Below, piece after piece: positions 9,118 to 12,552 of a stretch of 32,750 nucleotides of DNA. Source of the DNA: Candidatus Saccharimonadota bacterium (GTDB lineage Bacteria; Patescibacteriota; Saccharimonadia; Saccharimonadales; OFTM59); NCBI GenBank assembly GCA_029260855.1, contig JAJDCK010000015.1:1-32750 (forward strand), given 5' to 3'. Positions within the stretch are counted from its first letter, which is position 1. Every line of letters begins with the position of its first letter. The notes below the pieces were generated by a model. The model saw only the letters and a list, made by a program, of their open reading frames with translations, searched no databases and was not told the origin of the DNA. Made by a program: the position numbers and the translations under genes.

Positions 9118-12057
9118 TTAATCAGCTTTTTTCAGCTTAACCACCAGCTGCACACCCCCTATGTTGACCACCGCTTCATAGCCCGCCAGCCCCTCGTCAG
9201 TAATTGAATTCGCTAGGGTTTCCTGACCTATGGTCTCGGCGAACTCCTGAATAGCGTGATTTAGCTCTACATCGGCGGTGCTAAGCGAAAGAGATATACG
9301 ATCCTCTACCTGAAGATCTGCGTGCTTGCGAGCGTTTTGTACCTGGCGGACCACCTCTCGCATCAAACCTTCGCGTTTCAGCTCTGGTGTAATGTTTTTG
9401 TCTACCGATACCCTTTGTAAACTCTTACTGTCGGGCTCTTCATTTACAACCTGTTTGACGTTTACTTCTTCGGCGATCGTAAGTTCCAGTTCTTTACGAA
9501 GCGGCAAACCCGTGTAACTCAACATGCTTAGAGGTTGACGAACTTTTATCTGTTGCTGTCCATCTCCTGAAAGCATTCGCTGAGCCAGACCTTGTTCTAC
9601 TATCTGACGCGTACGTGTCATTTCCTCAAGTATTACAGGGTCAACCTGGGCATTTTGAGGCCAGCCACTCAGGTGGACCGAGGATGGTAAATCCGTCTCT
9701 TTAATCAGTTGTCGCCAGAGGTAGTCGGACAAGAAAGGGGCCCAAGGGGCTAGAAGCTGGGTGACGCGCACCAATGTAAACCACAGCGTTTCGTAGGCGA
9801 ATTGCTTGTCGGTATCGTCTTCGCTTTTCCAGAAACGTCGCCTGGATCTGCGAATAAACCAATTAGACATGTCGTCAATAAGCAAGAATATTGGATTAAT
9901 CGCATGTGCCAATTTATAGTTGTCGGCTTGCTTTGTAACTTCGGCGATAGTCTCATTCAGACGCGACAGCATCCACTGATCAAGCACGTTGGTAGTGTTA
10001 GGTTGAATTCCTGGAGCGGCTGGCTTCCAGTTATCCAGTTGAGCATACATATCAAAGAATCGGAATGAATTCATGAGCGTGCCCAACACATTACGGTTCA
10101 GGTCCTTCATCGCGTCGCGGCTAAAACGCATGTAATCCGCATTGACCGCTTGGTTATTACTAAGCAGATAAAGCCTCAATGTGTCAGCTCCCTCTTGTGC
10201 GAACACCTCGTCAACTGGCGGGTAATTCTTCAATCTTTTTGACAACTTCTGGCCATCAGCTGCCATTATCATTCCATTCACTAACACTTGTTTATAGGCT
10301 GGGCTATCAAATAGGATGGTAGAAATTACATGCAGAACATAGAACCATTGGCTGGTCTGATCCAAGCCCTCACCAATATAATCAGCAGGAAAAGTCATTT
10401 CAAATTTTTCTTTGTTCTCAAGAGGATAGTGTTGTTGGGCTACTGGCATACTACCTGACTCAACCCAGCAGTCCAGAACCTCCGCTGTCCTGCGATAAGT
10501 TTTGCCATCCTTGCTGATAACCACGTCATCGATGAATGGACGATGAAGATCATCAAGTTTCACATCTGAACCAGCTAATTCACGTAATTTCGCAGTACTC
10601 TCAACAACGATGTAGTCATTTTCATCTTCAATATTCACCCAAATAGGCATAGGGGCACCCCAGTAACGATTACGGGATATAGCCCAGTCGCGCGCGCCTT
10701 CAAGCCACTTGCCAAATCTTCCGTCCTTGATATGCTCTGGTGTCCAGTTAATCTGTTGTGCTGAACGCAACAAGTCATCTTTTATGGCGGATACTCGTAT
10801 AAACCAGGTTGAAACAGCGTAGTATAAAAGGGGCGTTTCGCAACGGTAGCAGAACGGATATGTATGTTCTATGGTTTCAGCTGCAAATACGGCTCCTTTT
10901 TCCATCAGATCAGCGATAATTATCTTGTCCGCACCTTTAAAGAACTTCCCTTCAGCCTTTTGAAATCCTATATCGCTGATAACCTTACCTGAGTTGTCTA
11001 TAGTCACCAGGGTGGGTATAGCATTCTGGTGCGCCAGCTTAAGATCTTCTTCTCCGAATGCCGGAGCTATATGCAAGACCCCGGTTCCCTCATCTGTGCT
11101 CACGGTTTCTGCGGACCAAACTTTATAGAGATTACCTAGAGCCGGAGCCAAACGGCTTGCGACCCCCGGGAAAAGCGGTTCATAAACTTTGCCGACTAAA
11201 TCCAACCCCTTAACTTCCCTAACTACTTTATAGTTCACTTCGTCTTTGAATACACTTTCTAGCCTTTTTTTTGCGATTATCAGAGTTTCCTCACTTTTGT
11301 GTTCATTTTCCACGGTCACATATACATATAACTCCTTTGGCTTGACACCAATGGCAGCGTTGCCGGGCAAGCTCCACGGAGTAGTAGTCCAAGCCAGCAA
11401 AGAGGCGTCTTCGTCGGTAAGCTTGAACTTCACATACAAGCTAGGATCGGGGACGTTATCACGGTAGCCTTCATTGACCTCAAAATTAGATAAGGGGGTC
11501 TCGCAGCGAGGACAATATGGCATGCTTTTGTAGCCCCTGTATAGAAGCCCCTTATCGTTGACCTGTTTCAGAACCCACCACACACTTTCGGTATATTCAG
11601 AATCAACTGTCGCATAGGCGTTAACGGTATCTGTCCACCTCCCAACACGCTCAAAAAACTGCTCCCACTCAGCTTTGTACATAAAAATGGAGTCGTGGCA
11701 GGCTGCGTTGAATTTCTCTAGACCGAGCTCAAGTATCTGTTTCTTGCCACTTACTCCTAGCTGCTTCTCAATAGCAAACTCAACCGGCAACCCATGACAG
11801 TCCCAGCCGTTACGCCGTTCCACGTAATAACCCTGCATGGTTTTGTAGCGACCCAAACTGTCTTTGATGCTTGTTACAAGAGAATGACCGAAGTGAGGCA
11901 GCCCATTTGCAAACGGAGGCCCGTCGTAGAAGTTAAATACTTTGCCGGTTTGCTTAGTCTTTTCTAGCGATTTCTGAAATGTTTTCTCAGAACGCCATAT
12001 CTCAAGCATGTGTTCTTCTATTTGTGCTAGGTTAGATTTCTGACTTGTGTCAGCCAT
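9118..12057 (-). CDS. ileS: Isoleucyl-tRNA synthetase, type 2 (eukaryote-like)
   Basis: This class I synthetase charges tRNA-Ile in the cytoplasm. It is 979 residues, full length. The HIGH motif appears as GLPHFGHSL (about residue 55) and the KMSKS loop as QKLSKRLKNYP (about 605). Zinc-knuckle-like pairs occur in CPRCETPL and CYRCETPL, and the editing domain (TTPWSLPGNAAIGV) is present. The KxSKRLKNYP form places it with the IleS2 branch, whose members are typically poorly inhibited by mupirocin; that property is from family knowledge, not shown here. Translation starts at an ATG 7 nt after a perfect AAGGAGG. A leader of about 180 nt with a T-box motif and terminator precedes it. Confidence 0.97.
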   Translation of the reverse strand: MADTSQKSNLAQIEEHMLEIWRSEKTFQKSLEKTKQTGKVFNFYDGPPFANGLPHFGHSLVTSIKDSLGRYKTMQGYYVERRNGWDCHGLPVEFAIEKQLGVSGKKQILELGLEKFNAACHDSIFMYKAEWEQFFERVGRWTDTVNAYATVDSEYTESVWWVLKQVNDKGLLYRGYKSMPYCPRCETPLSNFEVNEGYRDNVPDPSLYVKFKLTDEDASLLAWTTTPWSLPGNAAIGVKPKELYVYVTVENEHKSEETLIIAKKRLESVFKDEVNYKVVREVKGLDLVGKVYEPLFPGVASRLAPALGNLYKVWSAETVSTDEGTGVLHIAPAFGEEDLKLAHQNAIPTLVTIDNSGKVISDIGFQKAEGKFFKGADKIIIADLMEKGAVFAAETIEHTYPFCYRCETPLLYYAVSTWFIRVSAIKDDLLRSAQQINWTPEHIKDGRFGKWLEGARDWAISRNRYWGAPMPIWVNIEDENDYIVVESTAKLRELAGSDVKLDDLHRPFIDDVVISKDGKTYRRTAEVLDCWVESGSMPVAQQHYPLENKEKFEMTFPADYIGEGLDQTSQWFYVLHVISTILFDSPAYKQVLVNGMIMAADGQKLSKRLKNYPPVDEVFAQEGADTLRLYLLSNNQAVNADYMRFSRDAMKDLNRNVLGTLMNSFRFFDMYAQLDNWKPAAPGIQPNTTNVLDQWMLSRLNETIAEVTKQADNYKLAHAINPIFLLIDDMSNWFIRRSRRRFWKSEDDTDKQFAYETLWFTLVRVTQLLAPWAPFLSDYLWRQLIKETDLPSSVHLSGWPQNAQVDPVILEEMTRTRQIVEQGLAQRMLSGDGQQQIKVRQPLSMLSYTGLPLRKELELTIAEEVNVKQVVNEEPDSKSLQRVSVDKNITPELKREGLMREVVRQVQNARKHADLQVEDRISLSLSTADVELNHAIQEFAETIGQETLANSITDEGLAGYEAVVNIGGVQLVVKLKKAD

Positions 12058-12076
12058 ATAGACCTCCTTAGAAAAT

Positions 12077-12138
12077 AAAAAAGCCCCTTCGTCTTTCAGG
12101 AGCCGGCTACGCCGACGGTACCATCCTGATTTGGGCTT
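12077..12138 (-). terminator. Attenuator hairpin in the ileS leader
   Basis: AAGCCC pairs with GGGGCTT and an inner CAGGA with TCCTG; the hairpin ends in six T residues. It overlaps the T-box core, so it is the alternative to the antiterminator fold. It also lies only about 20 nt before the ileS ATG. Confidence 0.75.
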
Positions 12139-12230
12139 GATTGTTCGCTATAACGGGCTTGCCCGGTGAGGTCTACGGCTCGCTAAGTCTGCGAGCTTTC
12201 TTCTCACTCCTCGTGGTTGATTGCCACTTG
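12077..12230 (-). promoter_or_regulatory. Probable T-box leader with intrinsic terminator upstream of ileS
   Basis: Read on the minus strand, the leader has, in order: AGTGAGAAGAAAG (12208-12196), like the base of T-box Stem I (B. subtilis glyQS has AGUGAGAGAAAG); a helix GTGAG/CTCAC enclosing GCTCGC-agactta-GCGAGC; a hairpin CGGG-caag-CCCG in the Stem III position; and GGATGGTACCGTCGG. The last contains the T-box core TGGTACC (12123-12117), which pairs with the uncharged tRNA 3' end; TGGT fits a discriminator A. The core lies in a long hairpin closed by AGCCC/GGGGCT and followed by TTTTTT, a terminator. The model is that uncharged tRNA-Ile permits readthrough into ileS. Stem I is very short and holds no Ile codon. 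The ATC in the preceding GTGG-caatcaa-CCAC hairpin is the only candidate specifier, so specificity is unproven. Confidence 0.72.
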
Positions 12231-12285: not shown

Positions 12286-12552
12286 TCAACCACCAGAACT
12301 ATATGCGGCCACCTCATCCATTAGGGGTAGCTCTGCGCCTTCCCAGTGCTTCAGTAATTCACCGTCATCACGCTTAGCTACAACTGCCGGATATCGCACT
12401 ATGTCATAAAGCCTTGCTAAGTCAGCGCCTTCCCTTGTTTCTAGACTTAATAGTTCTATTGCGCCCCCCTTTATGCGCTGAAAATCATTCGCATACATCT
12501 CAACCATGCGAGCATGGTCAGAATTAGGGTGGTACAAGATGCAGACCTTCAT
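12286..12552 (-). CDS. Small thioredoxin-fold-like protein lacking CxxC
   Basis: This 88-residue protein begins MKVCILYHPNSDHARMVEMY and ends DEVAAYSSGG. The pattern of a beta strand, then an active-site-like turn, helix, strand and the segment YDIVRYPAVVAKRDDGELL with a probable cis-proline is that of the glutaredoxin/thioredoxin fold. The usual CxxC turn is replaced by HPNSDH, so ordinary disulfide exchange is not expected; Cys4 lies on the first strand. A TAAACT hexamer 7 nt before the ATG suggests a leaderless transcript. Function unknown; the fold is inferred by eye. Confidence 0.7.
   Translation of the reverse strand: MKVCILYHPNSDHARMVEMYANDFQRIKGGAIELLSLETREGADLARLYDIVRYPAVVAKRDDGELLKHWEGAELPLMDEVAAYSSGG

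Follow-up and report, generated by a model that had tools for sequence, protein, structure and literature searches.

Two groups of described T-box riboswitches come closest to the leader analysed here. In T-boxes of class I, the 5' strand of the terminator is formed by the 3' strands of A1 and A2 (PMC7583486). The class II T-boxes of actinobacterial ileS genes, known from Nocardia farcinica (PDB 6UFM) and Mycobacterium tuberculosis (PDB 6UFG), control translation (PMC7583486, PMC10651847). According to a review, control of transcription by T-boxes generally requires a long Stem I gripping the tRNA elbow, since the choice has to be made before the polymerase passes the terminator, and a short Stem I goes together with translational control (PMC7583486). 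For T-boxes with a short Stem I, TBDB offers a class II covariance model, which was applied only to reference genomes of Actinobacteria and to class I matches with truncated Stem I (PMC7778990); with this scope, members from candidate phyla that RF00230 misses would not be collected. In a literature search that covered few subscription papers and preprints, we found nothing linking T-boxes to Saccharibacteria, Patescibacteria, Parcubacteria or the candidate phyla radiation, and an earlier description is possible.

Comparison with related leaders suggests, with a probability of about 0.85, that a structured leader of 150 nt, located on the minus strand between a promoter-like site and the start codon of ileS in a Saccharibacteria genome, is a T-box riboswitch with an ultrashort Stem I controlling ileS transcription. 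Judged by described anatomy and not by sequence, it shares with the actinobacterial class II ileS T-boxes a short specifier-bearing Stem I, Stem II with an S-turn, the Stem IIA/B pseudoknot, the T-box bulge and the lack of an elbow-binding IDTM (PMC7583486, PMC10651847). In contrast to them, a terminator with U-tract would control transcription here and the ribosome-binding site is left free; moreover, the present leaders occur in Saccharibacteria and other Patescibacteria and also precede valS, aspS, lysS, glyS and hisG. With class I T-boxes (RF00230; Bacillus tyrS, glyQS), the leader has in common UGGNACC between A1 and A2, a terminator before a synthetase gene and, by analogy, presumably uncharged tRNA as a ligand recognised by complementarity. 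Unlike in class I, Stem I comprises only 15 nt, the long Stem I and IDTM being absent, and in most Saccharibacteria the terminator takes its 5' strand from the linker or Stem III. The leader would thus depart from the textbook in two respects, by coupling an ultrashort Stem I to a terminator and, as far as predictions go, by a terminator that encloses the antiterminator.

The window, i.e., the whole stretch of 32,750 nucleotides that was analysed, belongs to an assembly of 790 kb in 18 contigs, and the closest relatives of its ileS bear the name Candidatus Saccharibacteria. On its minus strand, nrdR, ftsZ and ftsA are located further upstream, followed by ileS (9118-12057), which encodes an isoleucyl-tRNA synthetase of 979 aa (TIGR00392, 863 bits), and then by rplU. 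Elements of the leader reach past positions 12230-12077, as there is a possible K-turn strand near 12236-12228 and, at 12289-12261 on the minus strand, the promoter-like site TTGATG-17-TACAAT, which matches at 9 of 12 positions, 0.7 such sites being expected by chance in the region. A transcript from this site would be predicted to begin some 30 nt ahead of Stem I. An ORF of 88 aa (12286-12552, minus strand; MKVCILYHPNSDHARMVEM...) directly upstream of the promoter looks thioredoxin-like, gives no match in NCBIfam, and has similar counterparts upstream of ileS in relatives (e.g., L009-L011 and L040). A 5S rRNA gene is situated near the contig end (32286-32400, minus strand). Another contig of the same bin, C14 (L163-L164, G000:C14), carries a second ileS with its own T-box. 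A true duplication was considered and rejected; synteny with the window, at about 75-86% identity, extends over most of that contig, which therefore more likely stems from a co-binned relative.

Thirty ileS leaders from related Saccharibacteria genomes, that of the window among them, were aligned (alignment A1). They share one architecture, which comprises, in order, a 15-nt hairpin, Stem II with its S-turn, a CGG...CCG element with F-box and pseudoknot, a purine linker, an optional Stem III, and A1-TGGNACC-A2-A2'-A1'. The upstream hairpin GTGG-CAATCAA-CCAC (12213-12227, minus strand) therefore takes the place of Stem I and its AUC that of the specifier. This Stem I consists of 4 bp and a loop of 7 nt, is devoid of an IDTM, and exposes AUC (12221-12219), followed by an A, in its terminal loop; its four pairs all covary, and 100% of the cells are paired. 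The loop consensus in the alignment is YNATCAN, and a scan of Saccharibacteria leaders that accepted ATC, GTC, ATT and ATA encountered ATC in 67 of the 67 leaders counted. By this comparison, the specifier is an ordinary Ile codon, AUC, in the loop of Stem I. The sequence CAATCAA recurs in the linker (about 12143-12137) and was rejected as a second specifier, relatives carrying AATTAAG, AAACAAG and similar sequences there. At the base of Stem I, TCC/GGA in the window could form a K-turn; over the leaders, own partners pair at 6.84 and permuted ones at 6.54 (sd 0.20).

An initial annotation had recognised a T-box attenuator with terminator and a reduced Stem I on ileS of a candidate-phylum bacterium, and anatomy, covariation and U-tracts bear this out. 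The elements that it listed are present on the minus strand between 12230 and 12077, namely AGTGAGAAGAAAG, GGGCAAGCCC, TGGTACC (12123-12117) and six T residues (12082-12077), with ileS beginning at 12057. Its hairpins are real, but the alignment of 30 leaders shifts their names by one domain: what had been called Stem I corresponds to Stem II, in which the S-turn (AAGAA / GTAGA) normally bears no codon, the supposed Stem III-like hairpin represents the IIA part of the IIA/B pseudoknot, and the "separate upstream hairpin" (12227-12213) is Stem I itself. Rightly, it had pointed out that the internal loops AAGAAA / CGTAGAC contain no Ile codon and that ATC occurs in the CAATCAA loop of the upstream hairpin, and the comparison of related leaders that it had proposed indeed reveals covariation in the stems (alignment) and ATC kept in that loop (67/67 in the scan). 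The atypical specifier that it deduced, i.e., that GTGAG...CTCAC is a Stem I without Ile codon and tRNA-Ile is read in a non-standard way, agrees with the codon-free internal loops. However, GTGAG...CTCAC corresponds to Stem II with S-turn in all relatives, ATC is found in all 67 leaders, and in other phyla the upstream hairpin carries a codon that varies according to the gene. This correspondence of codon and gene already refutes non-standard reading and leaves it a negligible likelihood.

Downstream of Stem I, Stem II (12166-12207, minus strand) is made up of the base GTGAG/CTCAC, in which five of five pairs covary, the S-turn or loop E (AAGAAA / CGTAGAC), and a distal GCTCGC hairpin. Throughout the alignment, the S-turn consensus is GAAGAA / AGTAGAA, and TAxA is invariant. 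The Stem IIA/B pseudoknot with the F-box CCGTTA follows at 12147-12165 (minus strand). In relatives, the IIA element is a short CGG...CCG stem, and a permutation test over 49 of them gives 8.8 for own IIB partners against 6.4 for swapped ones, with a maximum of 7.5 in 10,000 permutations; in the window leader, IIB pairing amounts to only about 2 bp. The linker GAACAATCAAGCCCAAA (12130-12146, minus strand) has RRRxG-like purines and, according to sequence and pairing analysis, contains with AAGCCC (12138-12133) the 5' strand of a nested terminator. Between RRRxG and AA, the window leader has merely CCC in place of Stem III, which is absent. The antiterminator or discriminator hairpin (12096-12129, minus strand) is composed of A1 (TCAGGA/TCCTGA), the T-box bulge TGGTACC and A2 (GTCGGC-GTA-GCCGGC); A1 and A2 together are paired in 98% of cells, and 8 of their 10 pairs covary. 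Neither tRNA-Ile nor tRNA-Ala(TGC), which are adjacent to each other in the relatives L159 and L160, was found in this assembly, as the 16S-23S spacer seems not to be assembled, and the features of tRNA-Ile were taken from relatives instead. There, the tRNA has the anticodon GAT and an encoded A73-CCA, and is thus complementary to the specifier AUC as well as, with its ACCA end, to the UGGU of the bulge (12123-12120).

In alignment A1, 95.4% of the cells of five helices are paired and 17 of 21 pairs have changed on both sides. The covariation score of 0.673 compares with 0.269 ± 0.017 in shuffled alignments (0/500) and with 0.07-0.13 if partners are slid. Pairing percentages are somewhat flattered, since the structure was drawn from the same sequences, yet the margin over the controls is still large, and on comparative grounds the leader structure is far beyond chance. 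The folding energy of the window leader alone is only weakly unusual (z = -1.9). With a covariance model built from the alignment (R1), the window obtains 108.6 bits (E 6.3e-27), a match that is inevitable because the window sequence is part of the building set; E-values of R1 are rough, and independent support comes from R1 matches falling upstream of synthetase genes. A search of the window against all Rfam families at E<=10 gave nothing relevant and no match to RF00230, a model built on a long Stem I, and none of 61 genomes of relatives exceeded its cut-off (best 40 bits, cut-off 93). The initial annotation had named a missing Infernal match together with a lack of conservation in close relatives as grounds against its reading: the RF00230 match is indeed missing, whereas TGGNACC and all stems are retained.

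In the window, GGGCTT (12086-12081) forms the 3' strand of the terminator and leads into the U-tract of six T (12082-12077), the whole element occupying 12077-12086 on the minus strand; it can pair with AAGCCC or, as AGGGGC, with GCTCCT. Shortly after A1', at least four T are present in 65 of 67 Saccharibacteria leaders and at least five in 59 of 67, which argues for a transcriptional design. Alternatively, the switch might act on translation by masking the ribosome-binding site, like the T-boxes of Actinobacteria. This would fit an aptamer architecture equal to that of the actinobacterial translational ileS T-boxes (PMC7583486) and the one relative (L068) without U-tract. Given the U-tracts in 65 of 67 leaders and a ribosome-binding site, AAGGAGG (12069-12063; with spacer 12058-12069, minus strand, read directly from the sequence), that is unsequestered, beyond the terminator and outside the predicted folds, such a design is highly improbable.

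Transcriptional control being the preferred reading, two layouts of the terminator have to be considered. In 58 of 75 Saccharibacteria leaders the layout is nested, i.e., the strand at the U-tract pairs upstream of A1 and the terminator encloses the A1/A2 hairpin, as in L002 (AATCACTTCTTTT...AAAAGAAGTGATT). Nested stems with their own partners have a mean of -14.0 kcal, compared with -8.3 for permuted partners (sd 0.36, 0/10,000). The comparison of the leaders shows the anatomy and the specifier as well as conservation of the nested pairing. Stem III is present in 49 of 54 relatives with nested terminator; in 46 of these 49, half or more of its 3' arm also serves as the 5' strand of the terminator, and Stem III and terminator are therefore mutually exclusive. 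About ten Saccharibacteria leaders (e.g., L022, L052, L062, L067, and L072) have the textbook layout with the A1/A2 3' strands in the terminator, and both layouts thus exist among homologous leaders. In some other Patescibacteria (L193, L194, L202, L203, L207, and L209), the terminator hairpin seems to lie wholly downstream of the antiterminator, overlapping neither it nor Stem III.

The window leader can form either structure. Its nested pairing joins AAGCCC (12138-12133) with GGGCTT (12086-12081) at -11.9 kcal. It is possible, if rather unlikely, that the same T-box works here with a canonical terminator, in which GCTCCT (12103-12098) pairs with AGGGGC (12088-12083) and the terminator takes up the A2/A1 3' strands as in textbook T-boxes. 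Nine to ten Saccharibacteria leaders clearly use such a terminator, and the window can form the required hairpin of 6 bp directly before the U-tract (-8.7 kcal). However, the nested state of the whole leader has a predicted energy of -50.4 kcal, against -45.9 for the canonical terminator and -43.2 if only the antiterminator forms, and in the leader on C14 (L053), a near relative, the nested stem persists (-11.1) while the canonical one is lost (-3.2). Because of these predictions and the retention of only the nested stem in the C14 leader, it is fairly probable that the nested terminator is the functional one in the window.

From what is known of the family, we infer the direction of switching, the dependence on tRNA and the activity in cells as follows. 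In the tRNA-bound state, the discriminator would be held together, comprising the linker purines, Stem III where present, and the A1/A2 hairpin; the linker or Stem III strand would thereby be kept from the terminator, and RNA polymerase would read through into ileS. If tRNA-Ile is charged or absent, AAGCCC of the linker would pair with GGGGCUU at the U-tract and close the terminator around the A1/A2 hairpin, and transcription would stop. As the window leader is devoid of Stem III, a strand exchange is not visible in it, and tRNA would therefore have to block the nested stem in another way: the AAG purines may dock on the tRNA-bulge duplex, or the tether may become too short when the tRNA spans both domains. 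Since the T-box bulge stays formed in the nested state, one might also think of an inverted logic, in which uncharged tRNA stabilises the nested terminator with its intact A1/A2 and switches ileS off. This would lower IleRS just when tRNA-Ile is uncharged. Moreover, the T-boxes studied require Stem III to bind the tRNA 3' end (PMC7583486), and in relatives (46/49) Stem III is disrupted by the nested stem. Such an inversion is therefore very unlikely.

Of 343 genomes of the class, 228 contain an R1 match; across the phylum, the figure is 146 of 380. In a number of gut Saccharibacteria (most of L036-L051), no such leader directly precedes ileS. Forty matches outside the order, nearly all of them outside the class, were examined, and all 39 with an identifiable downstream ORF precede aminoacyl-tRNA synthetase genes (ileS, valS, aspS, glyS, and lysS). 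Their specifiers were read from the covariance-model alignment, a naive hairpin search having picked wrong hairpins. Before ileS, the Stem I loop holds ATC, with one doubtful case of ATT. Ten of 12 valS leaders carry GTC in this loop, and the other two hold it in a hairpin that the model places differently; considering clear cases, 23 ileS leaders with ATC and 10 valS leaders with GTC, the association is significant (Fisher p = 1e-8). GAC is found before aspS of the non-discriminating type and GGT before glyS. The T-box bulge varies with the gene as well, being UGGU for Ile and most Val, UGGC for Asp/Asn (aspS), UGGA for glyS and UGGG for hisG, and N of the bulge fits the discriminator bases that bacterial tRNAs other than tRNA-Ile generally have.

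In other Patescibacteria, leaders of this ultrashort-Stem-I type for other amino acids, with codon and bulge fitting the gene, precede valS (L190, L195, L201-L203, L205, L209, L212, L215, L216, and L218), aspS (L196, L206, and L223), glyS (L213) and lysS (L219). Several valS leaders have an enlarged loop, e.g., ATTAATGTCA. Another valS leader (L207:60-200) displays two consecutive short hairpins, the first with the loop CTGTCA (Val GTC) and the second with ATC (Ile), and possibly possesses a double specifier. At L196 (512-1678, minus strand), an AAC (Asn) specifier and a UGGC bulge precede a gene of the aspartate--tRNA(Asn) ligase type, so that a non-discriminating AspRS is apparently under tRNA-Asn control. 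In Saccharibacteria, a T-box-like leader with a UGGG bulge and CAC near Stem I is located directly upstream of hisG (TIGR00070; L114:264-1150, minus strand, G051:C5). A UGGG bulge is of the C73 type, as in tRNA-His, and here a T-box possibly controls a biosynthesis gene instead of a synthetase gene. At L115:490-1998 (G039:C48), an Ile T-box is separated from ileS by an FMN-reductase-like gene and two small ORFs, and may therefore control an operon.

On balance, it seems more likely than not that T-boxes that terminate transcription and have an ultrashort Stem I form a large and uncatalogued class in Patescibacteria, covering Ile, Val, Asp/Asn, Lys, Gly, and His. In many of its Saccharibacteria members, the Stem III 3' arm, or the linker where Stem III is missing, would be exchanged with a terminator that encloses an intact antiterminator hairpin. 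Hundreds of candidate-phyla leaders would break the rule of the long Stem I, which makes the kinetic argument behind it directly testable, and in their terminator layout Stem III would compete instead of the antiterminator. The Rfam T-box model largely misses the regulation of aminoacyl-tRNA synthetases in Patescibacteria, which a dedicated model would allow one to annotate.
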